The translations under genes and the position numbers were made by a program. From assembly GCA_023665085.1 (NCBI GenBank), contig JAMPEQ010000009.1, positions 1-64,000 of the forward strand: a DNA stretch of 64,000 nucleotides, in the 5' to 3' direction. Each line of letters starts with the position of its first letter. The stretch's first letter is position 1. Of this stretch, positions 1,693 through 17,289 are shown one piece after another. The notes under the pieces are model-generated. The model saw nothing but the letters and a program-made list of their open reading frames with translations, was not told the origin of the DNA and made no database searches. Source of the stretch: Bacteroides sp. (GTDB taxonomy: Bacteria; Bacillota; Clostridia; Oscillospirales; Acutalibacteraceae).

Positions 1693-4599
1693 TTATTGCT
1701 GTTCGGCAGTATTCTGTTCAGCGAATTCATTATGAATTACAAATGCATGCTTTCTTGATTTTAATACGCTGAATGGCGGAATTGTGTCATAATTACTGCC
1801 ATAGATTGTTTTGAGCATATATTCTGATTCTTGCGGAACGGGAAGCGGATGTCCCATAAACATAACATATCTTGGCTCTCCGAAGAAGGCGGTAGGGAAG
1901 GTTTCTTTTGTGCATGGATAATAGCTTGTTAAGTGAGCCAGATACTTTCTTTTAATTATATTGCCGTTATCGTCATAATCTTCAAACATTCTCAGCGAAT
2001 TATCCAGATACTTGTAAATCCATTTCATTGGTACAAAGGGAAGAATCATTCTGAGTATGTACCTTTGTGGTTTAGCTTTCATAACAAGAGAGTATTTTGT
2101 TTTTATAAACAGCATTCTGCGTACAAAACGTGTTCTCTTGCTCTGCTTAAGCTGTTTTTTGCTCATTGGCTTTGGCACATAATCCAGCGGAAAAACATCC
2201 ACATAAGGACCATTATATTTTGTCAGTCCATATGTTTTTTCCTGAACAAATTTTGTAGGTCTCTTCATCTGAACTTTAGCAGCAAGAACCCAGTGCTTGT
2301 TATTATTTTCATAGCAGTCAAGAGCTAAGCCCTCGGGAAGCTTTCCTTCCATTCCAAGCTTTATGAACCTGTCGTAGCTTTCTCTGGGAATCATAATATC
2401 AACATCATCATCCCATGGAATAAAGCCGTTATGACGCATTGCACCAAGCAGTGTACCCTCCGAAAGATAATATGTTATATTATTTTCACGGCAGAATTTG
2501 TCAAGCTGAAGCAAAATTTCAAGAGTATAGCCCTGAAGCTCTTTTATTTCACTTCTTAATCTGTCCCAAGTCTTTTTGGGAGGCTTATTTCTGTTTTTGA
2601 ATTCAGCAAGTCTTTTCTTCAGAGTTTTTTTTTTCACTTCCTGAGGCTCTTCGTCAACAATAAGACCGAAAACATATTGGTAGATACGATAAATTGTATC
2701 ATAATCCAATGGTTCGGGATTGTTGCCAAGTCTTACAGGATTAACTGAATTAGAAAGTATTTCTAAATGCTCTTCAGTCTTAAGCTCAGGAGAGTCTAAC
2801 TCAAGAACATCCTTAACGATGAATTCATACTGCTTAATTGCCTTGTTTGTTGAGCTCATGCCGAATTCTTTTTTGAGAATCTGGAAAGCACTGACAAGAA
2901 TTTCTCTTGTGCTCATTTCAGAAACAGGTTTGAATTCTGCATTTTCATGATTTTTGCTGATATAAAGATTTTTAACAATAGGAAGCTCTGAATGATTCTC
3001 AATTCCAAGCTCTTCCATCTCAACAGCACGGCGCGAGTTTTCCTGATTATTCATATAGCGCCATACCTTTGGCAGACAAAGCGCAACAGCGTATCCGTGA
3101 GGAAGATTATAGAGTGATGTGAGCTTGTAGCTCAGTGCGTGGCCTGCAGTTGTCTGCGAAATATTGATAGCCTTTCCGCTGTAGTTTGCTGCTATCTGCA
3201 TATAGTGCAGGGCTTCCTTTTCGTTTCTTAGATAAGGCATCATGTATTTGAGTATAAGACGCATGCCTGTAACAGCATAGTTACGGCATTTTTCATTTGT
3301 ATTAACACTCCAGATAGCCTCAATACACTGGCTGAGTGCATCTAAAACAGTGCATTTCTTTTGAAAAAGGGGAAGTGTTTCAAGCAATGATGTGTCTAAA
3401 ATTACGTATTCAGGAACAATGCAGTCATGAGTTACAGAGAATTTTTCACCCTGATAGTATACAACACTGTATCTTGTTGAATCACTGCCTGTTCCGGAAG
3501 TTCCAGGAATGCACAAATGCTTAATAGGAGAATAAATAAATTCCTGCTTAACGTAAGGTCCGTTTGCCTCGTCAAGCTGAGTGAAAAGTTTGATGTTCTT
3601 TGCGGTGTCAATTGAGCTTCCGCCGCCGATTGAGATTATAAAATCACAGTTTTCTTGTTTGAAGAGGTTTACACCTGCAACAACCTGCTCGTATGTTGGA
3701 TTTGATGAAAAATCTTTAAATAAAACAAAATCGTAATTAAGACTTTCAATATAATCGTGGCATGAAAGCACATCAAAGAAATCACAAACAATCATAGGCT
3801 TTTTTGCACCCTCTTTTTTCAAAATCTGAGGGAGCATGGAAATTGCATTGTCCTGTGAATAAATAACCTGTTCGTCAAAATCAAACTGGCGTATATCAGA
3901 TGAAACACGGGCAAGGTCATCAAGGTTATCAACCTCGTCAACATAGTAATTCTCATATGAAAAAGGCTTAATATTAAGATTTGATGCAATTTCATTAAGT
4001 GCATTTTCAGCATAAACCTGATCATTACCGTCTTTAATAAATTCCTCAACCTTATCAAGCCAAGCCTTCAAAGTGTCCTTGCTGAGCTTATAAAGAGGCT
4101 GAAATGCAAAGCAATCCTCATCAAATATTTTGATAGAAACCTCAACAATTTTATCGTCGGTGATTCTTGCCTTAAAGTCTTTTTCAGGAAGTGCCTTAGC
4201 TTTGTTAATCATACCAAGGTTTTTTTCCTCGCTGTTAATTACGTCTTCAAGCAGTTTTTTGTCGAAAACCAGATCACCATGCATTAGAAGAACGTCATCA
4301 TCAAGATATTCCTTTGCAAGATACATTGAATAGATGTAGTTTGTCTGATCAAAAATGGGGTTTTCAACAAATGTGATATTCAGATTTGAAAACTGAGGCT
4401 TGCCGGCACCGTTTTCAAGCTGTTCTTTGAAAGGGCCGGTGGTAATTACAAAATCAGTAACTCCGCATTCAGAAAGAAGGCGAAGCTGTCTTTCAAAGAT
4501 AGTTTCGCCATTTTTTAATGGAGCTTGTGATTTGTGGTGGGTTTTTGTAAATTCACCCATTCTTTTACCATAACCGGAATTAAATATTACGGCTTTCAT
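1693..4599 (-). CDS. Trifunctional fusion: nucleotidyltransferase, Fe-alcohol dehydrogenase, LicD transferase
   Basis: A 968-residue three-domain fusion. Residues 1-~235 are a MobA/LicC-like NTP transferase (start MKAVIFNSGYGKRMG; acidic MHGD near 107). Residues ~240-650 are an iron-type alcohol dehydrogenase (GGGSSIDTAKN; GTSGTGSD; GHALSYK; LPHGYA). Residues ~690-968 are a LicD transferase (GTLLGAMRHNGFIPWDDDVD). The gene directly follows pepM and ppd, so I infer that it reduces phosphonoacetaldehyde to 2-hydroxyethylphosphonate, activates this with CTP and transfers it to a glycan. Relevant known precedents are PhpC-type reductases, Treponema PntC (CTP:2-aminoethylphosphonate cytidylyltransferase) and LicD phosphocholine transferases. 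Oddity: the usual first metal-ligand His of the dehydrogenase (DAxxH) reads DALSQ; this may be a subfamily trait. The individual domain calls are firm; the joint pathway is inference. Confidence 0.85.
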   Translation of the reverse strand: MKAVIFNSGYGKRMGEFTKTHHKSQAPLKNGETIFERQLRLLSECGVTDFVITTGPFKEQLENGAGKPQFSNLNITFVENPIFDQTNYIYSMYLAKEYLDDDVLLMHGDLVFDKKLLEDVINSEEKNLGMINKAKALPEKDFKARITDDKIVEVSIKIFDEDCFAFQPLYKLSKDTLKAWLDKVEEFIKDGNDQVYAENALNEIASNLNIKPFSYENYYVDEVDNLDDLARVSSDIRQFDFDEQVIYSQDNAISMLPQILKKEGAKKPMIVCDFFDVLSCHDYIESLNYDFVLFKDFSSNPTYEQVVAGVNLFKQENCDFIISIGGGSSIDTAKNIKLFTQLDEANGPYVKQEFIYSPIKHLCIPGTSGTGSDSTRYSVVYYQGEKFSVTHDCIVPEYVILDTSLLETLPLFQKKCTVLDALSQCIEAIWSVNTNEKCRNYAVTGMRLILKYMMPYLRNEKEALHYMQIAANYSGKAINISQTTAGHALSYKLTSLYNLPHGYAVALCLPKVWRYMNNQENSRRAVEMEELGIENHSELPIVKNLYISKNHENAEFKPVSEMSTREILVSAFQILKKEFGMSSTNKAIKQYEFIVKDVLELDSPELKTEEHLEILSNSVNPVRLGNNPEPLDYDTIYRIYQYVFGLIVDEEPQEVKKKTLKKRLAEFKNRNKPPKKTWDRLRSEIKELQGYTLEILLQLDKFCRENNITYYLSEGTLLGAMRHNGFIPWDDDVDIMIPRESYDRFIKLGMEGKLPEGLALDCYENNNKHWVLAAKVQMKRPTKFVQEKTYGLTKYNGPYVDVFPLDYVPKPMSKKQLKQSKRTRFVRRMLFIKTKYSLVMKAKPQRYILRMILPFVPMKWIYKYLDNSLRMFEDYDDNGNIIKRKYLAHLTSYYPCTKETFPTAFFGEPRYVMFMGHPLPVPQESEYMLKTIYGSNYDTIPPFSVLKSRKHAFVIHNEFAEQNTAEQQ

Positions 4600-4600
4600 A

Positions 4601-5719
4601 TTATTCTGCTTCCTCCATAAATTCTTTCATCATGTTAAGCTTGTTCTGCTCAGGTGCAATGGTAGGTCTTCCTAAATCATCTCTTGAGCCTTGGTTTACA
4701 TAGATAACAAGGGCAGAATTAGCTTCATCCTTAAGCTTGCTGATGCCGTCTGCAACCTCGTCTCTTGTTTCAGCAGTGTAAACATTTCTGAAGCCAACTG
4801 CCTTTAAGATAGTCTCAATGTCCATATCAAAGGCAATTGTAGGTTGTCCTCCAACTGATTCGTGAGCACCGTTGTTTATTAAAATGTATTTAAAGTTTGC
4901 ATCTGCATTTTTTGCAGCAATACCCATTCCGCCCATGTGCATAATGAATGAGCCGTCGCCGTCAATGCAGTAAATATTTTTTTTGCTGCCGATTGACATA
5001 CCAAGTGCAATTGAAGCAGTATGTCCCATTGAGCCGACTGTTAAGAAATCATGTGAATGACCTTGATTTCTTCTCTCTCTGATTTCAAAAATCTCTCGTG
5101 AGGTTTTGCCTGTTGTTGAAACAATGAATGCATCATCCTCAATAACACTCATTGCTGCCTCAAGTGCATCCTCTCTTTTAATCTGATATCTCGGAGTTTC
5201 CTTTGAAATTTTATAATCTGAAAATGTGCCTTTCTGAACAACTAAAGCATAAGGCTTATTTTCTTTTTTCATATATGTTAAGGCTGTTTCCAGCTGAGCC
5301 TTGTAATCATCATTTAAAATCTGATATTCAATTCCCATGCATTCAAGAAGCGGTAATGTAAGCTTACCCTGCTTAACATGCTGAGGCTCATCCTTTTTAC
5401 CGGGCTCACCGCGCCAGCCTACAATCAAAAGCATAGGCACACGGTAAACATCCTCGTCTGCCAGTGAAAGAATAGGATTAACAGTGTTTCCTAAACCTGA
5501 ATTTTGCATATAAACAACACCGTAGTTGCCTGATGCGATGTGATAACCTGAAGCAATAGCTACTGCATTGCCCTCATTAGCTGCAATGATATTGTTCTGG
5601 CTGGGACTGTTTTCTTTAACACAAGCACAGAAGTTTGCAAGAAGTGAGTCAGGAACACCTGTGAAAAAGTCAACCTGATTATCTAATAAATAATCATAAA
5701 ATTCTTTTGTATTAACCAT
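4601..5719 (-). CDS. ppd: Phosphonopyruvate decarboxylase
   Basis: A 372-residue thiamine-diphosphate enzyme predicted to decarboxylate phosphonopyruvate to phosphonoacetaldehyde, the step that pulls the unfavourable PEP mutase reaction forward. Visible features: the N-terminal pyrimidine-binding part with GVPDSLL and the conserved glutamate in ANEGNAVAIA, the GWRGEPGKKDEPQH segment typical of Ppd, and the C-terminal ThDP/Mg motif GDGSFIMHMGG followed about 20 residues later by NN. Length is typical for Ppd, which is shorter than the pyruvate decarboxylases. It begins 1 bp after the pepM stop and ends 1 bp before the fusion gene, so the three are translationally linked. Confidence 0.92.
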   Translation of the reverse strand: MVNTKEFYDYLLDNQVDFFTGVPDSLLANFCACVKENSPSQNNIIAANEGNAVAIASGYHIASGNYGVVYMQNSGLGNTVNPILSLADEDVYRVPMLLIVGWRGEPGKKDEPQHVKQGKLTLPLLECMGIEYQILNDDYKAQLETALTYMKKENKPYALVVQKGTFSDYKISKETPRYQIKREDALEAAMSVIEDDAFIVSTTGKTSREIFEIRERRNQGHSHDFLTVGSMGHTASIALGMSIGSKKNIYCIDGDGSFIMHMGGMGIAAKNADANFKYILINNGAHESVGGQPTIAFDMDIETILKAVGFRNVYTAETRDEVADGISKLKDEANSALVIYVNQGSRDDLGRPTIAPEQNKLNMMKEFMEEAE

Positions 5720-5720
5720 A

Positions 5721-7034
5721 TTATTGTTTACCTCCGGGAATTAATCCAAGAACTTCCTTGATAGAAATGATTTCATCATCAACTTCCTTGCTTCTTCCAC
5801 ATTCCAAAATCTTGTCTGCAGTCTGCTTCATTGCACGGTAAGCTGATCTCAAAAGATGATTTGCGTGGATTATGATATTTGCACCCCACTCGCAAAGCTC
5901 TTCCTCTTTGATATGGTTGTATGATGTAGGAACAAGGATAACAGGAACATCAGGGAATTCTGCACGGAACTGGCGGAGAAATTCTTTGATTTCTGCTCCG
6001 TCCTTGAGTCTGCTGTGAATCATAACGGCATCAGCACCGCCCTCGTTAATATAGATTCTCGCTCTCATCATAGCGTCTTCCATACCCATTCCGGCAATAA
6101 GACTTTCGAGTCTTGCAACAATCATAAAGTCACGGGTAACCTGAGCCTGCTTACCTGCCTTAATTTTTGCAGCAAATTTGTGCGGATCGTCAAGAACCTG
6201 CTTTGCATCTGTGCCGTAAAGAGAGTTCTGCTTTAAGCCGGTTTTGTCCTCTATAATAACAGCAGAAACACCGATTCTTTCAAGTGTTTTTACATTGTAG
6301 ACAAAGTGCTCAACCTTTCCGCCGGTGTCACCGTCAAGAATGATTGGTTTTGTTGTAACTTCCATTATATCGTTGATGGTTGTAATTCTGCTTGTAAAGT
6401 CCACAAGCTCAATATCAGGCTTACCTTTGAAGGAGGAGTCACATAAGCTGGAAACCCACATTGCATCATATTCTTTAACCTGCATGTTTTCTTCGTCAAC
6501 ATAGCGTGAATTTTCAACAATTAAGCCTGAAAGACCGTTAGAAGCCTCCATAACACGAATATATGGCTTTAATTTTAAAAGCTTGCGAAGTTTTGCACGG
6601 CGGATGTCAGGAGTGTTGAAAACGGGGCGAAGCTTCTCATCAACATCTGTTCCCGAAACTCCCTCAGTGTACGGAACTTCAATCAGCTGACCGCCATATT
6701 GAGCAAGAAGCTCAATAGCTTCTTCGCGGACATTTGACTGAATGCCTGTCTGCCAGTCGTCACCGTGTACAATATAGTCAGGCTTAAGACTTTCAATATT
6801 TGCTTTATAAGAAAGAGTATCCTGCTTAACAACTTTTGTAACCTGCTTGAGATTTTCAAAAATTCTTTTTCTTGTTTCATAGTCAAGAACAGGAAGTCTT
6901 TTGTATGTCGCAATAGCTTCGTCTGTAAGAAGACCGATAACTACATCGCCGTATTTAGCAGCCTCTTCAATAACATTCATATGACCGCTGTGAATAATAT
7001 CTGATGCAATTGCTACATAAGAAATTTTGTTCAT
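5721..7034 (-). CDS. pepM: Phosphoenolpyruvate mutase with N-terminal cytidylyltransferase domain
   Basis: A 437-residue two-domain protein. Residues 1-~135 are an HxGH-type cytidylyltransferase-like domain (H15-S-G-H18). Residues ~150-437 are PEP mutase of the isocitrate-lyase superfamily, with the mutase signature EDKxxxxxNS at residues 262-271 that separates it from hydrolases and lyases. It converts PEP to phosphonopyruvate, the entry reaction of nearly all phosphonate synthesis. It lies upstream of ppd by 1 bp. N-terminal nucleotidyltransferase fusions of PepM are known; here the pathway has a second cytidylyltransferase domain in the 968-residue fusion, so the HxGH domain may be structural, redundant or act on another substrate. 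Confidence 0.93.
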   Translation of the reverse strand: MNKISYVAIASDIIHSGHMNVIEEAAKYGDVVIGLLTDEAIATYKRLPVLDYETRKRIFENLKQVTKVVKQDTLSYKANIESLKPDYIVHGDDWQTGIQSNVREEAIELLAQYGGQLIEVPYTEGVSGTDVDEKLRPVFNTPDIRRAKLRKLLKLKPYIRVMEASNGLSGLIVENSRYVDEENMQVKEYDAMWVSSLCDSSFKGKPDIELVDFTSRITTINDIMEVTTKPIILDGDTGGKVEHFVYNVKTLERIGVSAVIIEDKTGLKQNSLYGTDAKQVLDDPHKFAAKIKAGKQAQVTRDFMIVARLESLIAGMGMEDAMMRARIYINEGGADAVMIHSRLKDGAEIKEFLRQFRAEFPDVPVILVPTSYNHIKEEELCEWGANIIIHANHLLRSAYRAMKQTADKILECGRSKEVDDEIISIKEVLGLIPGGKQ

Positions 7035-7091: not shown

Positions 7092-7997
7092 TTATTCAAA
7101 ATTGTTAAAATGGTGCTTGCTTTTCCTTTTTTCTACAGGTGGCATTTTCATATAATCTTTGTAGAGTGTTTTCAACACCTTGTCCGAATCTGACGGAGCA
7201 TAAAATTTGTGTCCCTCAAATTCAATTTCAATCGGATTGCCGTACCATTCTTTTTTAAATGTTTCTTTACTTACATGATACAAACTTGCGAAATTTATCA
7301 GATATTCATTTTTCGCATCACTTGTTTTCAGCATAAGCTTATTAATAGCCTTGTGCAGACTTTTTATAGAAGAAAATGCTGAAATAAGTCTGCATGGGTA
7401 ATAATAAGCAAATTTTCGCTTCAGACTCTTATACTTGGATTTAGTGTGGAGTCCTGTTTTTATCCACAAGGACCGTTTTAATGTTCTGATAATTTTACCT
7501 CTTATTCTTAAATCCAGATTAACATCGCTTGGTGTATAATCCAGCGGAAAAATATCTATGTTTGGTCCGCAGTTAAGAGCAATTCCTCTAAACATTTCCT
7601 TCTCAAATTCAGTGTGCCGTGTAATTTGAATGGTGGACGGAATTGACCAGTGCTTAGGGTTGGTAGCAAGGCAGTCAAGCTGATATCCGTCCTCCAGTCC
7701 ATCTGCAGCAAGTTCCAAAAATCTTTCGTAGTCCTCACGGAGCATAACGATATCCGCATCATCATCCCATGGAATAAATCCACCGTCTCTTACAGCTCCT
7801 AAAAGAGTGCCCTCACCAAGATAGTAGGTTATGTTGTTTTCTCTGCAAAACTTGTCCACAGCAAGCATGATTTCGAGAATATAGTTATGGAGCTTGTTCA
7901 TTTCGTCATATTCTTCAACTGTTAAAGCAAGCTGTACACCCTTATCGGTGACGGCGTATTGCTTGTCTTTAGGCAAAGAAACGTCTGTATTCTCCAT
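7092..7997 (-). CDS. LicD family phosphotransferase
   Basis: A 301-residue LicD protein; members move a CDP-activated phospho-group such as phosphocholine onto surface sugars. The core motif GEGTLLGAVRDGGFIPWDDDAD is near residues 62-84 with the metal-binding aspartates intact. It is clearly paralogous to the LicD domain of the 968-residue fusion (shared KHW, PxxDxFPLDY and F-x-G-x-P blocks). I chose the ATG at 7997 because it has GGAG 11 bases upstream; the longer reading frame starts at a TTG inside that ribosome site. It is first gene of the phosphonate subunit and has its own promoter. Likely acceptor-specific transfer of the phosphonate or another phospho-substituent. Confidence 0.85.
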   Translation of the reverse strand: MENTDVSLPKDKQYAVTDKGVQLALTVEEYDEMNKLHNYILEIMLAVDKFCRENNITYYLGEGTLLGAVRDGGFIPWDDDADIVMLREDYERFLELAADGLEDGYQLDCLATNPKHWSIPSTIQITRHTEFEKEMFRGIALNCGPNIDIFPLDYTPSDVNLDLRIRGKIIRTLKRSLWIKTGLHTKSKYKSLKRKFAYYYPCRLISAFSSIKSLHKAINKLMLKTSDAKNEYLINFASLYHVSKETFKKEWYGNPIEIEFEGHKFYAPSDSDKVLKTLYKDYMKMPPVEKRKSKHHFNNFE

Positions 7998-8079
7998 AAT
8001 AATTATCTCCAAATCATAGTAGTGTGACAGCCTTATTGCTTATAGAAAAAGTAAAATTTGGCTAACAGCGGATTATAAT

Positions 8080-8135: not shown

Positions 8136-9233
8136 TTAAGAAAGAATTATTTTGCAAATTCTGTCGATATCATCAGCTTTCAAATCAGAATATAATGGCA
8201 GACAGATTACCCTTTTTGCTGTATATTCTGCAACAGGTGTATTTTGGATACCGCATTTTTCCTTAACGGCAGTAAGCTCGCTGGTTAATGGATAAAAATA
8301 TTTTCTTGCGTGGATATTTTCATTTGCAAGCTCTTCAATAACCTGCTCTCTTGTTTTTGAAAATTCTTCGGTAAAAACAACAGGATAGTAAGCGTAATTC
8401 CTATCAACAGTATTATCGGGCTTTAATACCTTTAGTCCCTTTTGGTTTTGCAAATGACTGTCATATCTTTCATAAGCAGCACGTCTTTTTGCCTTTTCTT
8501 CATCAGTGTGGCGAAGATTGCATATTCCCATAGCCGCATGAATTTCAGACATTTTTGCATTTGTGCCGATAAAGGAGGCGTCCTCATCCTTATTCATTCC
8601 AAAGCTTTTGATTTTGTATATTGAGTCCTTTTCTTCAGGTTTGCAGACAATGCAGCCGCCCTCAACTGTATTGTATACCTTTGTTGCATGAAAACTGAAG
8701 GTGGACATGTCACCATAGCAGGCAATGCTTTTTCCTTTAATTTTAACTCCGAAAGCATGGGCTGCATCGTATAATACTTTAAGATTATGCTTTTTTGCAA
8801 TACGTTCAATTTCATCAACATTGCATGGTGTGCCGTAAACATGAACAGGTACAATAGCCACAGTTTTGTCTGTAATCAGCTCTTCGATTTTTGTTGTGTC
8901 AATGCAAAGAGTGTCCTTGTCAATGTCACAGAAAACAGGGGTTAATCCACATCTGAGAATTGACAGTGTAGTTGATGCAAAGGTGAAAGGTGTCGTTATA
9001 ACTTCACCTTCGTTTAAGCCCATTGCCTGAAGTGCAATTTCCAGAGCCATGTGGCCGTTTGTTACCAGACAGGCAGAGTCAACGTTTAAAAATTTTTCAA
9101 TTTCCGATTCAAGCTTTTGATGCTTTGGCCCGTTGTTTGTCAGCCATTTTCTGTCCCATATATCTTTAATTTCTTCAACAAACTCCTCGTAAGGAGGCAT
9201 TGACGGTGATGTTACGTTAATTATTTCTCCCAT
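8136..9233 (-). CDS. DegT/DnrJ/EryC1 sugar aminotransferase
   Basis: A 365-residue PLP-dependent nucleotide-sugar aminotransferase. The PLP lysine is K185 in SFHATKVYNTVEGG and the ring-stacking/aspartate pair is D156-A-A-H. With RmlA and RmlB in the same operon and no RmlC or RmlD, the likely substrate is dTDP-4-keto-6-deoxyglucose, giving dTDP-4-amino-4,6-dideoxyglucose (VioA-like). A 3-amino product would need a ketoisomerase, which is not seen. It starts 7 bp after the ATP-grasp gene without a strong ribosome site, which suggests coupled translation. Regiospecificity is inferred from context and family resemblance. Confidence 0.85.
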   Translation of the reverse strand: MGEIINVTSPSMPPYEEFVEEIKDIWDRKWLTNNGPKHQKLESEIEKFLNVDSACLVTNGHMALEIALQAMGLNEGEVITTPFTFASTTLSILRCGLTPVFCDIDKDTLCIDTTKIEELITDKTVAIVPVHVYGTPCNVDEIERIAKKHNLKVLYDAAHAFGVKIKGKSIACYGDMSTFSFHATKVYNTVEGGCIVCKPEEKDSIYKIKSFGMNKDEDASFIGTNAKMSEIHAAMGICNLRHTDEEKAKRRAAYERYDSHLQNQKGLKVLKPDNTVDRNYAYYPVVFTEEFSKTREQVIEELANENIHARKYFYPLTSELTAVKEKCGIQNTPVAEYTAKRVICLPLYSDLKADDIDRICKIILS

Positions 9234-9240
9234 TTGTTAA

Positions 9241-10530
9241 TTACCAACCTATATTTTTCCAGTCAATTAAGGCTTCTATTTCGTCAAGATCAAATACATT
9301 TATTCCGCATTTATCCATAACGTCCTTTCTTTCTCTAAAGGAATCGTCAATGAATATAGCGTCTTTTTCTTTTATGTAGTCCGATTTCTTTTCATCGGCC
9401 TTAAGATGAATTATCTCGTCAAATAAATCCTTTGATACCTTGTGCTTCTTTAAGGTTTCATCAATAACTCTTGCGTGGCGGGAAATCAGAACAATCTTCT
9501 TTCTCTCATTTACACATTGATACAGAAACATCAAAAGCCACTGATTAACCTTGTTTCCAAGCTCAAGAGTATCGTCAAGGTCAACATAAACTGTGCTGTA
9601 GCTTTGGTTTATGGTATATCTGTTGATTAATGCTCTGTCGACCTCAATATCATAGTCATGTGCCAGCACATCAACCTCATATCCAAGCATATTATATATT
9701 GTCAAAACAGGAAAGTTTATTCCTCTGTTTCTTGAAAGTCCCATTGTTCCGGGAATACGCGGTGAGATTTCCAGCAGTTTATATTCACTATCGTTATTTC
9801 TTTTTAGCTGAAAGAACCATGCACCATTGAACTCAAGTCTGCTGTTAATTGTCTCAGCAATTTCAATCAGTCTGCTGTCAGTAATAAGCTTTCTTGAATT
9901 CATACTTATTCCGCTTTTTGTACGGATTCTGTCACGCAGGCTTGCAACTCTCAGTTTTCCGTGAATATCAGTAAAGCAGTCAATAGTATATTCTGTTCCG
10001 CTGAGATATTCGCATATAACGACCTCGTCTTTTTCAAGAAGTCTTATATCAAGCTCCTGTTCAGAGTTAATCTTTATTGCACCATTAGAGCCCTGACCGA
10101 CTGATGGCTTCACAAAAACAGGGTATCCTGTAATTTCGCTCTTGTCAGCAAAGGTTTTTGGAATGAAATCCTCACCTGCAAAAAAACTGTAGGTTTTTGC
10201 TTTTGAACGGCAGATGTCCACTGTTTTGAGTGCAGATGTAACAACTTTTGCATCAATTTCATTCTGATGTTCAGTGAGCTTTAAGCAAACACTGTCGTGA
10301 GCAGGGTAGATGAAATCAATGTTGTTTTCTCTTACTATATTATTAATTTTTTCAATGAAATCATCATCCGTTACAAACGGAACGTCATTTATGATATTTT
10401 TGTAAACCATTCTTGCATGGTCTGTTGCACTGGTTGCTCCTATAACATTAAGCATTTTAGAAAACTTAAGTGCGTTGTAAATTTCTAATCCGATTTCAGT
10501 TCCTGCGGGAAAAATAAGAATATTATACAT
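9241..10530 (-). CDS. ATP-grasp ligase fused to a HAD-like domain
   Basis: A 429-residue fusion. Residues ~1-300 are a CarB-like ATP-grasp ligase: YPVFVKPSVGQGSNGA nucleotide loop, CEYLSGTEYTIDCF, and LLEISPRIPG as the metal-binding strand. Residues ~305-429 are a HAD domain with motif DLDDTLE and a late IFIDDSFRER motif. ATP-grasp enzymes join a carboxylate to an amine. Its place immediately before the aminotransferase suggests acylation of the amino sugar, perhaps with an amino acid; the HAD part could remove a phosphate from an intermediate. Neither substrate is shown by sequence. A weak AGGATA ribosome site precedes the start. Confidence 0.75.
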   Translation of the reverse strand: MYNILIFPAGTEIGLEIYNALKFSKMLNVIGATSATDHARMVYKNIINDVPFVTDDDFIEKINNIVRENNIDFIYPAHDSVCLKLTEHQNEIDAKVVTSALKTVDICRSKAKTYSFFAGEDFIPKTFADKSEITGYPVFVKPSVGQGSNGAIKINSEQELDIRLLEKDEVVICEYLSGTEYTIDCFTDIHGKLRVASLRDRIRTKSGISMNSRKLITDSRLIEIAETINSRLEFNGAWFFQLKRNNDSEYKLLEISPRIPGTMGLSRNRGINFPVLTIYNMLGYEVDVLAHDYDIEVDRALINRYTINQSYSTVYVDLDDTLELGNKVNQWLLMFLYQCVNERKKIVLISRHARVIDETLKKHKVSKDLFDEIIHLKADEKKSDYIKEKDAIFIDDSFRERKDVMDKCGINVFDLDEIEALIDWKNIGW

Positions 10531-10553: not shown

Positions 10554-12029
10554 TTATTTCTTTTCAAAAATAGAATTTCCGTTTTTCAGCTCAATGCTGT
10601 TTCCTGTTCTGCATACGGCAATTACGTCGCCATTCTTATCAGTAAGCTTAGTTCGGCTGACTCTGGAGTGAATAATGTAACATACCGTAAAATAGTATTC
10701 ACTGCCCTCTTTTAAAGAGTCCAGCTTGCTTTTGCTGAGATTAAAGCCAAAAAACAGCTTTTTATTGTTTATCGAAGTCTTTTCAGCCTTAAGTCTCATT
10801 TTTTCTCTCTTGCCTTTGTTCATTAAATATACACAGGCAAGCTCCGGCTTACAGCTATCCCATATATCAGCATGAACAGAAAATGAATATTCCTGCTCGG
10901 TTTCAGTCACCTCAGCATTGAACTCGGGTATAAAAAATCTGTTTTGAGTGCGAAATTCCAAAGGAATTTCCAAGTCGTCGTATTCATAAACAACTTTGTC
11001 ATCTTCTGCCGTGTGCTTATGCTTGCTTTCCATACTGATAAAGTGTTTAAAATCGTCAAAGCGTTTTGACTTTATAAGATACGCCAGTGTTTTAACACGG
11101 TATGTTAAAAATTCACATTCGCTGATTTCTTCATAACAAAAGCTTTTTAAATATTTATGCATTTCTTTAAGATAAAGTTCTCTGAATTCTTCATTACCGG
11201 CAGTATCAACTGCTAAAATAAGCAGCCGCATAAGACCGCTTATTCTGCTGTATGCATACATTTGCTCCCAGCCCTTTTTCCTGAAAAGCTTGTCTGTTTT
11301 TTCCATCATTCTCATACGATCTTCAAAATTGCTTTTTTCAGATCTGGTTCGGGTTACAGACTGATAGCTGTCGCCATTTGTATCATGCTTTCGCCAGTGA
11401 TAAGTAATACCTGTGCAGGTGCATATTTTTTTTGCGTGCATAAATGCTTTGCAGTTGAAATTTCTGTCAGCATTCATTGCACCCTTTTCAAGATATATTT
11501 TATTACTCGTGAGCATTTTTCGTTTATAAAGACGTCCCCAATAATATGGATTGAAGGAAAGAAACGGTGCCTGTCTTATGTCATTAACCGATACTTCTCT
11601 TTCCCATGTAATCCAGTCGGGAACATAGTCAAGGTTATAGAGCCTATCGTTTCTGAGTATTTTTCCTCTGCCGATAACGATGTCACTGTCATGCTTATCT
11701 GCTTTGGTAATAAGTCTTTTAAGGCTTGATTTAGGTAGCTTGTCATCAGAGTCCATAAGGAATATATATCGTCCTTTAGCAATTTTTATTCCCTGATTGC
11801 AGGCCTCTGCTCCGCCTGTATTCTTTTTGTTTTGAATATAGATTACATTGTTTTTTTGGTCAATGCTTTTTTTGATTATTGCATCAAGCTCTTCATCATT
11901 GTCATTGTTAATAATTATAAGTTCAAAATTTGTAAAGGTCTGTGCAAAAATTGAGTTTAAGCATTCCTCTATCCACTTTTTTGTATTGTATACAACAAGA
12001 ATAACACTAATATCAATGTTACTTGACAC
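10554..12029 (-). CDS. Family 2 glycosyltransferase
   Basis: A 491-residue GT2 enzyme. The N-terminal GT-A domain begins ISVILVVYNTKKWIEECLNSI, with NNDNDEE and the DXD-like FLMDSDDKLP near residue 95. A C-terminal extension of about 250 residues holds a beta-rich module (residues ~370-490) of the type seen in teichoic-acid and capsule transferases. The start is GTG at 12029, with AAGGAG 9-10 bases upstream. It is expected to act at the inner face of the membrane, extending the repeat unit with a nucleotide sugar. The donor may be the dTDP-amino sugar made by neighbours; this is inference. Confidence 0.85.
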   Translation of the reverse strand: MSSNIDISVILVVYNTKKWIEECLNSIFAQTFTNFELIIINNDNDEELDAIIKKSIDQKNNVIYIQNKKNTGGAEACNQGIKIAKGRYIFLMDSDDKLPKSSLKRLITKADKHDSDIVIGRGKILRNDRLYNLDYVPDWITWEREVSVNDIRQAPFLSFNPYYWGRLYKRKMLTSNKIYLEKGAMNADRNFNCKAFMHAKKICTCTGITYHWRKHDTNGDSYQSVTRTRSEKSNFEDRMRMMEKTDKLFRKKGWEQMYAYSRISGLMRLLILAVDTAGNEEFRELYLKEMHKYLKSFCYEEISECEFLTYRVKTLAYLIKSKRFDDFKHFISMESKHKHTAEDDKVVYEYDDLEIPLEFRTQNRFFIPEFNAEVTETEQEYSFSVHADIWDSCKPELACVYLMNKGKREKMRLKAEKTSINNKKLFFGFNLSKSKLDSLKEGSEYYFTVCYIIHSRVSRTKLTDKNGDVIAVCRTGNSIELKNGNSIFEKK

Positions 12030-12052: not shown

Positions 12053-13072
12053 TTACTTTTTGCCGTAATGTTTTTCGTAATAATCCTGATATTCACCTTT
12101 GATAATAGGTGTCCACCAATCCTTGTTTTCAAGATACCAGCTGACTGTCAAATCAATGCCGTCGTCAAATTTTGTGTTAGGTGTCCATCCAAGCTCTTTT
12201 TCGATCTTGGATGCATCAATAGCATATCTCATATCATGACCTGGTCTGTCAGTTACATATTCTATAAGACTTTCAGGCTTACCCAGCTTTTCAAGTATTG
12301 TTTTAACAACCTGAAGATTTGTTCTTTCGTTGTGACCGCCTATGTTGTAAACATTTCCTTCTTTGCCGTTTCTTATGATAAGGTCAATTGCTGCACAGTG
12401 ATCCTCAACATAAAGCCAGTCACGAACATTTTCGCCCTTGCCGTAAACGGGAAGCTTTTTGTCTGCCAGTGCATTAATAATCATCAGCGGAATAAGCTTT
12501 TCAGGGAAGTGGAAAGGACCATAGTTATTTGAACAGCGTGAAATACTTACAGGCAGATTGAATGTTCTGTGATAAGCAAGCACCAGCAAATCTGCAGAAG
12601 CTTTGCTTGCTGAGTATGGTGATGAGGTATGAATAGGAGTATCCTCAGTAAAGAATAAGTCAGGTCTGTCAAGAGGCAAATCACCGTAAACCTCATCGGT
12701 TGATACCTGATGATATCTTTGAATTCCATACTTTCTGCAGGCATCCATAAGCACCTGAGTACCAAGAATATTTGTTTTAAGGAAGATTTCAGGATTTTCA
12801 ATTGATCTGTCAACGTGGCTTTCAGCTGCAAAGTTGACGACAATATCAAATTTCTCGTTTTCAAAAAGATTAAAAACAAGCTCTCTGTCTGCAATATTGC
12901 CCTTAACAAATTTAAAGTTAGGATTTTCACTTGCTTTGTCAAGTGTTGCAAGATTGCCTGCATATGTTAATGCATCAAGGCAGACAACTTCGTCCTCCTT
13001 GTGATTATTTAAAATATAGTAAACAAAATTTGAACCAATAAAACCGGCTCCTCCGGTTACTAAAAGCTTCAT
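12053..13072 (-). CDS. rmlB: dTDP-glucose 4,6-dehydratase
   Basis: A 339-residue extended short-chain dehydrogenase: NAD-binding GGAGFIGSN at residues 7-15, catalytic TDE near residues 125-127 and YSASK (tyrosine/lysine pair near 150). It makes dTDP-4-keto-6-deoxy-D-glucose from dTDP-glucose. Length is typical of RmlB. It follows rmlA by 11 bp, with a GGAG ribosome site. rmlC and rmlD are absent from this window, so the product probably feeds the DegT aminotransferase rather than rhamnose, unless those genes lie elsewhere. Confidence 0.93.
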   Translation of the reverse strand: MKLLVTGGAGFIGSNFVYYILNNHKEDEVVCLDALTYAGNLATLDKASENPNFKFVKGNIADRELVFNLFENEKFDIVVNFAAESHVDRSIENPEIFLKTNILGTQVLMDACRKYGIQRYHQVSTDEVYGDLPLDRPDLFFTEDTPIHTSSPYSASKASADLLVLAYHRTFNLPVSISRCSNNYGPFHFPEKLIPLMIINALADKKLPVYGKGENVRDWLYVEDHCAAIDLIIRNGKEGNVYNIGGHNERTNLQVVKTILEKLGKPESLIEYVTDRPGHDMRYAIDASKIEKELGWTPNTKFDDGIDLTVSWYLENKDWWTPIIKGEYQDYYEKHYGKK

Positions 13073-13083
13073 GTTATTCTCCT

Positions 13084-13953
13084 TTAATTCTGGTTTGAGA
13101 GAGTTAAAAGATACTGACCGTAATCAGTCATTTTAAGTTCCTCTCCAAGCTTCATAAGCTGTTCGTCATTTATAAAACCACGTCTCCATGCGATTTCTTC
13201 AATGCATGAAATGTAAAATCCCTGTCTGTTCTGAACAGCCTCAACATATTCGCTTGCCTTAAGCATACCCTGCGGTGTGCCGGTGTCAAGCCATGCCATT
13301 CCTCTTCCGAGGAGTGATACATATAAATCTCCTCGTTTGAGATATTCGTTGTTTATAGACGTAATTTCTATCTCACCACGTTCAGAAGGTTTAACGTTCT
13401 TTGCAATTTCCACAACATCATTGTCGTAAAAATATAATCCCGGAACGGCAAAATTTGACTTCGGCTTTTCAGGCTTTTCCTCAAGGGAAATGACTTTTCC
13501 GTCTTCACCAAATTCAACAACGCCGAATGCTTTCGGGTTTTTAACAGGATATCCGAATACTGTTGCACCGCTCTTTCTGGCAGTAGCAGATCTGAGAATT
13601 TCCGTAAAATTTGTGCCGAAGAAGATATTGTCACCAAGTACAAGGCATACATTGTCATTTCCAATGAATTCATCACCGATAATAAATGCTTCGGCAAGGC
13701 CTCGCGGCTGCTCCTGCACCTTATATGAAATGCTTATACCTATTCTTGATCCGTCACCTAAAAGTGATTGGTAAATCGGAGTATCCTCCGGTGTTGAAAT
13801 AATAAGAATATCTTTAATACCTGCAAGCAGTAATACCGAAAGCGGATAGTAAATCATCGGCTTGTCGTAAATAGGCAGAAGCTGCTTTGAAACAACCTTT
13901 GTCATAGGATAAAGACGTGTACCCTTACCGCCGGCTAAAATTATTCCCTTCAT
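13084..13953 (-). CDS. rmlA: Glucose-1-phosphate thymidylyltransferase
   Basis: A 289-residue Rml[21 protein letters not shown] nucleotide/Mg loop at residues 8-27, then [13 protein letters not shown] and the EEKP segment, all characteristic of the short homotetrameric form. It makes dTDP-glucose from dTTP and glucose 1-phosphate in the cytosol. GGAG lies 8 bases before the ATG. A 70-bp gap separates it from the upstream GT2/TagF-like gene; I see no convincing promoter or terminator there. Confidence 0.94.
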
Positions 13954-14023: not shown

Positions 14024-16321
14024 TCAGCCCAGCATTTGCTTAACCTTTTCTATAATTCGTTCTGAATTATTTTTGTCGTTTGCAGACATGTCGTACATAG
14101 TATCTTTTGTACGCTGACGAAGCTCTTTGTCTATTGTCGGATCAGCAAGTCTTGCTTCAACCATGTCCATGGCCTCCATCCAGTCAGCAGTCTGTTGACC
14201 GGGCATAATCTTGTCGTAGTCATACAGCATAGGTGTAGCATCAAGATATATGTCCTTGTCATTATTGAATATAACCACAGGCTTGTTCATAAGAATAAAA
14301 TCAAACATTGAATTGCCGTAGTCGTTAATCATAAGCTCATAGTTCGGCAGATTGCAGAATAAATCACCTGCATTAAGAGTGTTAATGTGGCTGTATCTGT
14401 CAAGTATGCCGTTTAGTCTTGTCTTTTCAACAGGAGAATATCTCTTGTCAAGGAAGAAATCCATGAAAACATCAAGGTTTTTTAAGCGTTCGTTAATCTG
14501 TTCTGCATGCTTAAAGAAGTTATTGAGATAAGCCTCCTGATTGATTATGGATTTTCGCGGTGCAGGGGAGAGGAGAATTTTTCTTCTCGTATCACCCTTG
14601 TTGTCACGTACTGCATAGCTTCTCGGTGCACCGCAAATCATTATATTCTCTTTTGGAATATTGAAAAATTCTTCTTGAATTTTTGCGATTTTTTTATTTG
14701 GAGCTATGCTTAAAAATGTATCTTCATAATTTTCAACAAAATAATTTTTATTGATGTTATCCAGAGTAACAGAGCTGTATCTTTCAGGCTTGCTGTCAAC
14801 AACCTTCTGAGGATTTCCGTTTGGTGAAAATTCATCCTCTTTATAGATATCATCTTTAGTGAAATCTCTTATATACGAGCCTTTTCCAAGTCTGACGATT
14901 TTGGTTCCTGCGTTAAAGCCTTTGACATTTAAAGCTTTTGTTTTGCTGTCGTTTACAAATGCAACAGAAGCCTTTTTCATTATCTCTGTACATTCCTCAG
15001 AGCCTATTTTTACCATTGGAAGATTTTCAGCTTCGGCTAATTTCAACAGGCTTTGATTTTTTGTTATCCACACAGGATGAATTTCAGGATGATAAGCAAT
15101 AACGTATTCGTAAAGATTTTTTGTGTTGCCTGAAAAAGATTTTCTGCCCTCGCAGCTGAATACCCAAAGGCTTTTGTCCTTGGGAGCGTCTGCAAATGAA
15201 GAGTAGAAGCAAACCTTTTTAACAGCACTGTCTGTGAGCTTTTCTTCACGTTTCTCAAGCTTTTTGTTAATGCTTTTCTGAACTTTTTTGTCCTTTAATA
15301 ACAGGTTGACACCTTCTACAGTGTAGATACCATTAAGGGTGTTCATTCTGCGGCGAACAGCATCATTGCTTTCTGCTGCCAGGCTTGCGGCATAAGGATA
15401 TTTTTCATATGCCTCTTTAAGAAGCTCAAAATCACCTGTTTTTATGATGTATCTGATATAGTTGTTAAATTCAACTGCAATTCTGTTTCTTATATCCTTA
15501 TTGGCAAAGGAATTATAATACTTTTTAAAATAATTTTCCAAATCCATTGCCATTTCAATCCAGCTTGCACGGCTTTTTAAAAAGTGATCTGTCTTGCTGT
15601 CAAACATAATAACGCCGACTTCAGATCTTCTGTAAACAGACATAGTGTCAGGAATAAATCCTATTGGTTCGTCACCTGCCTGAATCATCATCAGTGAATG
15701 ATCGCCGTAAATGTGACGGTAATACCATTCGGGAATATCTCTGCTGTTGTCCCAGCGGTAAAAAATTGAAGATGTATGTGCAGGCCCGTATTTTATATAA
15801 TAATCCATATATATAGTGGTTAATGAGTTGTCATAACCGGGTATAGAGCTTGGAATGAAAATATCTCCGTTTTCATCAGGAATATACCAGTCATTCAAAT
15901 ACCACGATTCATCAGCCTGAATTCTCGTGTTATGAAAGCATGCTCTGTAGTCAGGATTTTCCTGCATAAAGTCAAACTGCTTCTGAAGCTTGTACTCATC
16001 AATCCAGTAATCATCACCCTCACAAAAGGCAACATAGGGTGTTCCTGCTCTTCTGCATAAATCAATAAGATTTCTTTGAGCACCCATATTTTGTTCTCTG
16101 ATAAAAGGGATAATTAAATCAGGGTACTTTTCTGCATATTCAAGAACTATTTCGGCTGTTCTGTCAGGACCTTTATCTTCACCGACCAAAATCTGATATT
16201 TAAAATTAGTTTTCTGTGACACAAAGCTGTCTAAAGCCTGTGCTATATAATCCTCATGGCCATAGGTAATGCAAATTACCGATACAAGAGGCTTGTCATT
16301 TTCTGAAAAATTATTCTCCAT
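14024..16321 (-). CDS. Bifunctional GT2 glycosyltransferase / degenerate TagF-like transferase
   Basis: A 765-residue protein. Residues ~10-340 are a GT2 domain (SVICITYGHEDYIAQALDS; CEGDDYW as the DXD-like site). Residues ~365-765 align in layout with CDP-glycerol glycerophosphotransferases, but the usual motifs are changed: KGSYIRD in place of HGTPLK, CGAPRSY for GYPRND, SPAPRKS for APTWRD, INDYGNSMFD for TDYSSVFFD. The family His in HGTPLK is therefore missing. It could use another CDP- or CMP-linked donor or be inactive in that half. The canonical version of the same domain is at 21170-22438, which makes the contrast visible. GGAGG precedes the ATG. Confidence 0.75.
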   Translation of the reverse strand: MENNFSENDKPLVSVICITYGHEDYIAQALDSFVSQKTNFKYQILVGEDKGPDRTAEIVLEYAEKYPDLIIPFIREQNMGAQRNLIDLCRRAGTPYVAFCEGDDYWIDEYKLQKQFDFMQENPDYRACFHNTRIQADESWYLNDWYIPDENGDIFIPSSIPGYDNSLTTIYMDYYIKYGPAHTSSIFYRWDNSRDIPEWYYRHIYGDHSLMMIQAGDEPIGFIPDTMSVYRRSEVGVIMFDSKTDHFLKSRASWIEMAMDLENYFKKYYNSFANKDIRNRIAVEFNNYIRYIIKTGDFELLKEAYEKYPYAASLAAESNDAVRRRMNTLNGIYTVEGVNLLLKDKKVQKSINKKLEKREEKLTDSAVKKVCFYSSFADAPKDKSLWVFSCEGRKSFSGNTKNLYEYVIAYHPEIHPVWITKNQSLLKLAEAENLPMVKIGSEECTEIMKKASVAFVNDSKTKALNVKGFNAGTKIVRLGKGSYIRDFTKDDIYKEDEFSPNGNPQKVVDSKPERYSSVTLDNINKNYFVENYEDTFLSIAPNKKIAKIQEEFFNIPKENIMICGAPRSYAVRDNKGDTRRKILLSPAPRKSIINQEAYLNNFFKHAEQINERLKNLDVFMDFFLDKRYSPVEKTRLNGILDRYSHINTLNAGDLFCNLPNYELMINDYGNSMFDFILMNKPVVIFNNDKDIYLDATPMLYDYDKIMPGQQTADWMEAMDMVEARLADPTIDKELRQRTKDTMYDMSANDKNNSERIIEKVKQMLG

Positions 16322-16338: not shown

Positions 16339-17208
16339 TTACTGCTTCTTTTCATCAAAAAATACTACCTTGTCAAAGTGCGGCTTTCTGTCTTCTATCT
16401 TAGGCATTTCCATGAAATTGCCGTACATAGAGGTCAAAACGTTTTCAGGGCGGTTAGGTACTGCAACCTCAACACCCTCAAAGACAAGCTTTTTAGTTGG
16501 AAATACATCGTTATACTCGAATGAACATTCAATTATTGTATCCTTATTGCCTACGCAGATTTTTTCATCACTGCTGTTAATTTTCTTTTTTAGTTTTTTC
16601 AGTTTAAGCTTGTCCCTTAAATCTCCTGCAAGATATTTAGGAAATGACAAAAGACTTTGTGTAGGTGCTTTTTTGCTGTATTTACTGTCTCTTGATTTGA
16701 TTCTGCACTCAAGTTTCTTGACAGCATCTGAATAAATATACTCATTTTTGTTGACGAGTGTTACCTTTAAAATATCAACACATATTCCGTGATATTTAAA
16801 TTTTCTGTCCATTTTCCATAGTGACTCATAGGTATCACTGTTAAGATCTCTTACCTTTGTCCATTTCGGCCAGTAAATAGGATCTGTTCTTCTGTTGTGT
16901 GCAATCATGTCAGACGGAAGTTCGCGCCTTAACAGCTCAACAGCTCTTGCATAGTCCCAGTCAAAAACAAATAAATCACAGTCATCATCCCATGGAATGA
17001 AACCATTGTGCCTGATTAAGCCCAAAAGAGTACCATGTGCCAGTACGTATGCAATGTTATGCTTTTCAAAAATATCTACAACGACTTTCAGCATTTCAAC
17101 GGATTTTTTCTGACATCTTTTTATGTCTTCAATTCCGTAGCTGTCGCTTACATAAAATTCAATACCATTCTTATCCTTGTATAATGAAAATCGGTTTTGT
17201 TTCTCCAT
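16339..17208 (-). CDS. LicD family phosphotransferase
   Basis: A 289-residue LicD protein, third LicD domain in this locus. The core motif GTLLGLIRHNGFIPWDDDCD is near residues 56-75. The longer frame begins at a TTG; I prefer the ATG at 17208, which has GGTGGGGG just upstream. It is first gene of the long minus-strand operon, 17 bp ahead of the GT2/TagF-like gene. Probably cytosolic or membrane-peripheral, transferring a phospho-substituent to a lipid-linked glycan. It is more distant from the other two LicD domains than they are from each other, so a different donor or acceptor is likely. Confidence 0.82.
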   Translation of the reverse strand: MEKQNRFSLYKDKNGIEFYVSDSYGIEDIKRCQKKSVEMLKVVVDIFEKHNIAYVLAHGTLLGLIRHNGFIPWDDDCDLFVFDWDYARAVELLRRELPSDMIAHNRRTDPIYWPKWTKVRDLNSDTYESLWKMDRKFKYHGICVDILKVTLVNKNEYIYSDAVKKLECRIKSRDSKYSKKAPTQSLLSFPKYLAGDLRDKLKLKKLKKKINSSDEKICVGNKDTIIECSFEYNDVFPTKKLVFEGVEVAVPNRPENVLTSMYGNFMEMPKIEDRKPHFDKVVFFDEKKQ

Positions 17209-17289
17209 TTCCCCCACCAATATATTTATATCCGAATTTTATTATTATAACTAAAATTTTAGTAAAAAGTTATAATTTAATTTTATAAT

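Follow-up and report, generated by a model that had tools for sequence, protein, structure and literature searches.

The 64,000-nucleotide stretch analysed here (positions 1 to 64,000 of contig JAMPEQ010000009.1, assembly GCA_023665085.1, Acutalibacteraceae; hereafter, the window) carries on its minus strand, at 1693..4599, a single open reading frame with an ATG start, encoding a three-domain protein of 968 amino acids (aa). The N-terminal domain (residues 1-238, 3886..4599) is a PntC/LicC-like nucleotidyltransferase (NT), recognised by Pfam, by PDB and fold searches and by a 51-row residue table. It is followed by an iron-type alcohol dehydrogenase (ADH; residues 239-640, 2680..3885), a predicted phosphonoacetaldehyde reductase placed by Pfam, alignment to BkTauF (6jko), a tree and a motif table, and then by a LicD domain (PF04991; residues 703-934, 1798..2493, motif EGTLLGAMRHNGFIPWDDDVDI), placed by Pfam and a LicD tree. 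This assignment, made earlier from the sequence alone, was borne out by Pfam scores that were all over the cut-offs: PF12804 matched residues 3-123 with 40.0 bits (cut-off 27), PF00465 residues 246-403 with 119.9 bits (cut-off 31.3), ADH_Fe_C residues 417-533 with 68.7 bits, and PF04991 matched over its full length (1-227 of 227) with 139.9 bits (cut-off 22.6). As the original prediction also had it, the gene lies directly behind ppd and pepM, all three on the minus strand, which had not been stated. The phosphonopyruvate decarboxylase Ppd occupies 4601..5719 (TIGR03297, 440.4 bits, cut-off 312.5), and the phosphoenolpyruvate (PEP) mutase PepM, with an N-terminal cytidylyltransferase (CyT) domain as in Fom1, occupies 5721..7034 (TIGR02320, 379.8 bits; PF13714; PF01467). 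One base separates pepM from ppd, and one base separates ppd from the 968-aa gene.

The frame is no chance run-on or assembly join, because locus L034 of a sheep-rumen metagenome-assembled genome (Eubacterium sp. RGIG7045) encodes the same three-domain fusion over residues 1-958, at about 80% identity, and loci L128 and L130 encode NT-ADH-LicD plus more domains; an artefact was rejected on these grounds. Across the family, NT and ADH shared one frame, measured from stop to stop, in at least 11 of 398 genomes, a count that spans five genera and takes in the own genome; it is a lower bound, as the family search scored the two best candidates per genome. Seven of these frames were 601-622 aa long. 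Besides the LicD form of the window, the fused forms comprised NT-ADH with LicD and a family 2 glycosyltransferase (GT2) domain (G685, 1244 aa), a five-domain protein whose tail runs LicD, GT2, TagF-like (G727, 1848 aa), and one with GT2 and a further tail (G104, 1203 aa) that looks LicD-like by eye, with no Pfam match at 1e-5. PepM scored over its cut-off in all 11 genomes, and in ten of them the order CyT-PepM, Ppd, NT-ADH was kept within one stretch; in the eleventh (G525), Ppd alone adjoins the fusion and PepM lies on a separate contig. Genome G465 has an ADH-LicD fusion without NT (664 aa) and a PepM frame of 680 aa, the size of the NT-CyT-PepM triple fusions discussed below. The view that precedents are only separate or two-domain proteins was therefore an understatement: 42 triple PF12804-PF01467-PepM fusions are described in PMC6697681, and NT-ADH recurs as counted above. 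The novelty is the fused, modular architecture, not new chemistry.

Two related arrangements were seen alongside. In G602 (L132:5165-7891), a LicD frame follows NT-ADH in the same reading frame with one stop codon between, so that the arrangement may be split or joined. A second NT-ADH-type protein of G727 (L129:2438-6589, 1384 aa) has lost the ADH metal ligands and has a diverged NT; its chain also contains two more domains, one strongly TagF-like and one MptE-like.

From the domains and gene order we infer the following pathway. PepM and Ppd would convert PEP to phosphonoacetaldehyde, which the ADH domain, using NAD(P)H and a divalent metal bound by Asp, Gln, His and His, would reduce to 2-hydroxyethylphosphonate (HEP). 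The NT domain would then join HEP and CTP into CMP-HEP, and after hand-over between the domains LicD would take CMP-HEP as donor and load its HEP-phosphonyl group onto a hydroxyl of a surface glycan presumably made by the same gene cluster. With all three predicted steps, the protein would serve a surface-phosphonate pathway of the Pnt type through three activities in one chain. Of the readings considered, this one has the best support and is held with slightly more confidence than doubt; its parts differ in strength.

The reduction step, taken alone, is in our judgement highly probable. In a midpoint-rooted tree of 55 ADH rows (at least 300 aa, over 75 bits; PDB rows as aligned stretches), a branch with 100/100 support separated a set of 43 rows, the ADH domain among them, from AdhE, methanol dehydrogenases, BkTauF, a T. 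maritima ADH and three further loci (L154, L054, L091). The domain thus fell in with the phosphonate-linked ADHs and apart from the ordinary ones in the tree, which has no PhpC, FomC, DhpG, butanol dehydrogenase or lactaldehyde dehydrogenase rows; so far as these rows can tell, the refuting outcome named beforehand, a middle domain clustering with ordinary dehydrogenases, did not occur. Two rows labelled "other" (L042 of G340 and L152 of G731) come from genomes with PepM on another contig. Within the 43 rows, L151 adjoins a fused PhnX-PhnW and L046 adjoins PhnW, both over the cut-off, and L148 is two genes away from one that resembles PhnL but falls slightly short of its cut-off (242.4 of 256.3 bits). 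A Segatella copri homologue (L094, 39% identity) is annotated as phosphonoacetaldehyde reductase and stands behind aepX and aepY.

Alignment to BkTauF (6jko) predicts D420, Q424, H487 and H501 as metal ligands, D420 to Q424 forming the motif DALSQ. The suggestion that this motif marks a distinct dehydrogenase subfamily was rejected: BkTauF binds zinc through Asp, Gln, His and His, the Gln included, and has Thr257 in addition (PMC6616044), and at the Gln site the 43 rows divide into 20 Gln and 23 His, mixed even among the fused proteins. The same protein gives some ground for supposing that the ADH acts on another aldehyde, e.g., sulfoacetaldehyde, since the sulfoacetaldehyde reductase BkTauF is its best solved relative by sequence (102.8 bits), with the four ligands and the Thr in common; a structural role for the domain could likewise be argued from the L129 paralogue that lacks the ligands. 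Both ideas are very improbable, as BkTauF falls on the opposite side of the 100/100 branch, the Ppd next door is predicted to supply phosphonoacetaldehyde, and relatives of the ADH adjoin PhnX and PhnW.

Two side observations concern this ADH group. The own genome encodes a second member (L099, G000:C27:75123-75530; 40% identity), whose relatives in the genus stand beside an ispE-like gene. At L046:4412-6673, in a genome without PepM, PhnW is followed by the group's ADH; this pair may free the nitrogen of 2-aminoethylphosphonate (AEP) and discard HEP, much as taurine use leaves isethionate.

That the NT domain makes CMP-HEP is judged reasonably probable. It has the PF12804 fold with GxGxR, the catalytic Lys and the Asp and Glu/Asp metal sites of PntC-type enzymes, keeping R13, K23, D109, E198, E222 and D224. 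Each catalytic residue checked was kept in at least 48 of 51 NT rows (at least 140 bits, counting that of the window; two rows with truncated starts were entered as gaps). In Treponema denticola PntC, Glu104 and Glu196 are two acidic residues at the amine of AEP (PMC6697681). The Glu196 site was kept in 51/51 rows, and the Glu104 site is His in 50/51, H107 in the window protein. For this reason, the NT was not filed as an AEP enzyme; a His at this site fits the uncharged hydroxyl of HEP. AEP is also disfavoured as the product because no PhnW over the cut-off was found in the own genome; a DegT-type aminotransferase at 8136-9233 might supply an amine.

In the order, 24 genomes were taken as having PepM (23 scored over the cut-off; G294 has PepM fragments only, under it). 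Of these, NT was present in 15/15 with a close ADH (at least 42% identity, E<=2e-59) vs 3/9 without (ADHs of at most 33% identity, or none at E<=1e-8). The association gave a Fisher p of 0.0006, uncorrected for kinship, and the counts were the same whether every candidate or the two best were scored. PhnW over the cut-off occurred in 0/15 close-ADH genomes, own included, and in 2/9 others, a sample too small to stand alone. In the fold search with the NT model, PntC-AEPT was best by E-value (6.1e-13) and LicC close behind (5.1e-11); by TM-score of the target, LicC and a CTP:inositol-1-phosphate cytidylyltransferase fit better than PntC-AEPT. By sequence, the PDB search gave 39.7 bits to PntC vs 30.8 bits to LicC, both weak.

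The picture of one protein that reduces, CMP-activates and loads the phosphonate therefore stood in part: the ADH grouping, the lack of PhnW over the cut-off in the own genome and the best E-value of PntC-AEPT speak for it, and the CyT domain on PepM, Fom1-like and a second candidate for making CMP-HEP, speaks against it. Several other findings pull in the same unfavourable direction. The structure model of the 968-aa protein had a mean pLDDT of 54.3 and a pTM of 0.33, usable for the NT domain only and poor across ADH and LicD. Three ADHs of pepM clusters (L154, L054, L091) fall outside the 43-row group, some ADHs of the genus inside it have ispE-like and further housekeeping genes as neighbours, where inspection by eye showed no phosphonate genes, and the PsrA score of the ADH (TIGR03405) is 127.2 bits, far under the cut-off of 423.7. 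Use of CMP-HEP by LicD, which we infer from the fusion and from LicC-LicD logic, is a weak point as well. Moreover, stand-alone NTs of 63-65% identity occur in six genomes (76-99% complete) with neither a close ADH nor PepM at E<=1e-30, and in five of these (L140, L141, L143, L144, L145) a major facilitator superfamily (MFS) gene with a shared motif stands beside the NT, the sixth lying at a contig end.

Two of these MFS neighbours (L140, L141) were scanned and look like organophosphate antiporters, resembling PgtP, GlpT and UhpC below the cut-offs. Such antiporter-linked NTs, together with the closeness of LicC to PntC-AEPT in the fold search and the service of LicC and the lic operon to phosphocholine (PMC6697681), would suit an NT and a LicD that work on an imported phosphate ester, be it phosphocholine or another, the ADH being an unrelated passenger. 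This has a slim chance of being correct, given PepM in all 11 NT-ADH genomes, an NT nearer to PntC than to LicC by sequence (both matches weak), and His where PntC has one of its two acidic residues at the AEP amine.

A weightier challenge comes from the CyT domain (PF01467; residues 1-140 of the PepM gene product, 6615..7034, minus strand), which had gone unremarked. It matched the Fom1 cytidylyltransferase (5x3d) with 166 bits and has the motifs HSGH and YTEGVSGT vs HPGH and YTPGISST in Fom1; with EDKTGLKQNS at residue 262 of PepM, the whole Fom1-type set (HxGH, TxGxS, EDKxxxxxNS) is present. The CTP motif was kept in 8/11 CyT-PepM rows from NT-ADH-fusion genomes and in 0/32 other PepM- or NT-linked CyT domains (rows of at least 80 bits, L034 included; G525 contributes none); judged by pattern, it is also present in two of the three stand-alone CyT rows. 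This distribution means that CyT may be the CMP-HEP maker in the window operon, where two plausible cytidylyltransferases are thus at hand to feed LicD. The Fom1 enzyme makes CMP-HEP (PMC6697681), and if its relative on PepM did so here, NT would be redundant or would activate another small organophosphate for LicD, as the stand-alone NTs beside antiporter-like genes might suggest. This alternative is possible, though rather unlikely. In the NT-CyT-PepM fusions, the CyT motif was lost and NT kept in 23/23 (NT incomplete in two rows), and an ADH that stands alone and belongs to the 43-row group is present in 17 of the 23 stretches, so that NT is the likelier activator there; NT and ADH also co-occur (15/15) and are fused in the window protein.

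Outside these sets, two NT-CyT fusions (L057:6276-7424, L085:3091-4215) have no PepM at E<=1e-30, glycan-type surroundings by eye and a lost CyT motif. A PepM cluster at L053:300-7753 has, by eye, two transketolase-like genes between PepM and Ppd, a short-chain dehydrogenase/reductase-like gene, a distant second NT and no visible ADH, and may make another phosphonate.

As for the transfer step, the LicD tree places the fused LicDs of the window protein, L034, L128 and L130 together in a single group (support 95/97). The variety of fused forms invites a more speculative view, in which the NT-ADH front end would make CMP-HEP for exchangeable tails (LicD, LicD-GT2, GT2 with a further tail, LicD-GT2-TagF-like), and the TagF-like module would join HEP head to tail into a phosphonodiester polymer resembling teichoic acid (poly-HEP). 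Such joining is conceivable because HEP, unlike AEP, retains a free hydroxyl after transfer; the view as a whole is improbable. TagF acts on CDP-glycerol. Proteins with PF04464 stand directly beside the phosphonate genes of G369 and G465 and near those of G602, and no TagD over the cut-off was found in these three genomes (G465 and G602 are only about 80% complete). In Segatella copri, a protein annotated as PF04464-type comes after the reductase. The argument from TagD absence is not supported in the own genome, where TagD scored 185.8 bits, and G727, with the five-domain protein, has TagD as well. This counts against poly-HEP, CDP-glycerol being the plainer donor in both genomes.

Beyond PepM, eight more same-strand genes reach position 17220, by appearance a surface-glycan cluster. 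They comprise a second LicD (7092..8012, PF04991, 150.7 bits), the DegT/DnrJ-type aminotransferase (8136..9233, PF01041, 337.9 bits), an ATP-grasp protein (9241..10530, PF15632, 82.8 bits), a GT2 (10554..12029, PF00535, 108.8 bits), an rmlB- and rmlA-like pair for dTDP-sugar synthesis recognised by eye from the reading frames (12053..13953), a GT2 fused to a CDP-glycerol glycerophosphotransferase-type domain (14024..16321; PF00535, 70.0 bits; PF04464, 91.8 bits) and a third LicD (16339..17220, PF04991, 118.4 bits), all on the minus strand.

In the account given in PMC6697681, the surface-phosphonate pathway is followed as far as CMP-AEP, and the steps after C-P bond formation are called enigmatic. 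The 968-aa protein names a candidate final transferase and predicts CMP-HEP as its donor; the three steps sit on one construct and are assayable together, and further candidate transferases come with the relatives whose fused tails are GT2 or TagF-like. For a C-P signal of the surface polymer, the 18-27 ppm region of 31P nuclear magnetic resonance spectra has been used (PMC8931226). No published description of a reductase-NT-LicD fusion was recognised in a literature search conducted mostly at title and abstract level.

Among known systems, PntC-AEPT (Tde1415, PDB 6PD1/6PD2) is alike in having a same-fold NT fused to an enzyme that uses phosphonoacetaldehyde: a phosphonate cytidylyltransferase joined to the transaminase that supplies it with AEP (PMC6697681). 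It differs in this partner and in lacking LicD, whereas the window protein has a reductase (HEP), His in place of Glu104 and an NT match of 39.7 bits. Fom1 of the fosfomycin pathway shares its CyT-PepM architecture and CyT motifs with the window PepM gene; the 968-aa protein has neither domain, and its setting is a glycan cluster. The NT-CyT-PepM fusions share the NT family and pathway genes, with same-group ADHs in 17/23 stretches, but there NT sits on PepM and no CyT motif survives in any of the 23, while the window NT sits on ADH and LicD. BkTauF (PDB 6JKO/6JKP) resembles the ADH domain in its metal ligands, Thr257 and a chemically similar substrate, and differs in being stand-alone, in its place in the tree and in Phe265, which is Tyr in the window ADH. 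The known phosphonoacetaldehyde reductases PhpC, FomC and DhpG are stand-alone too, as is the S. copri homologue, which matches in predicted reaction. Finally, LicD phosphotransferases share PF04991 over its full length with the C-terminal domain; they differ in that the expected donor of the window LicD would be CMP-HEP, not CDP-choline, and in that this LicD is fused to the domains predicted to make its donor.

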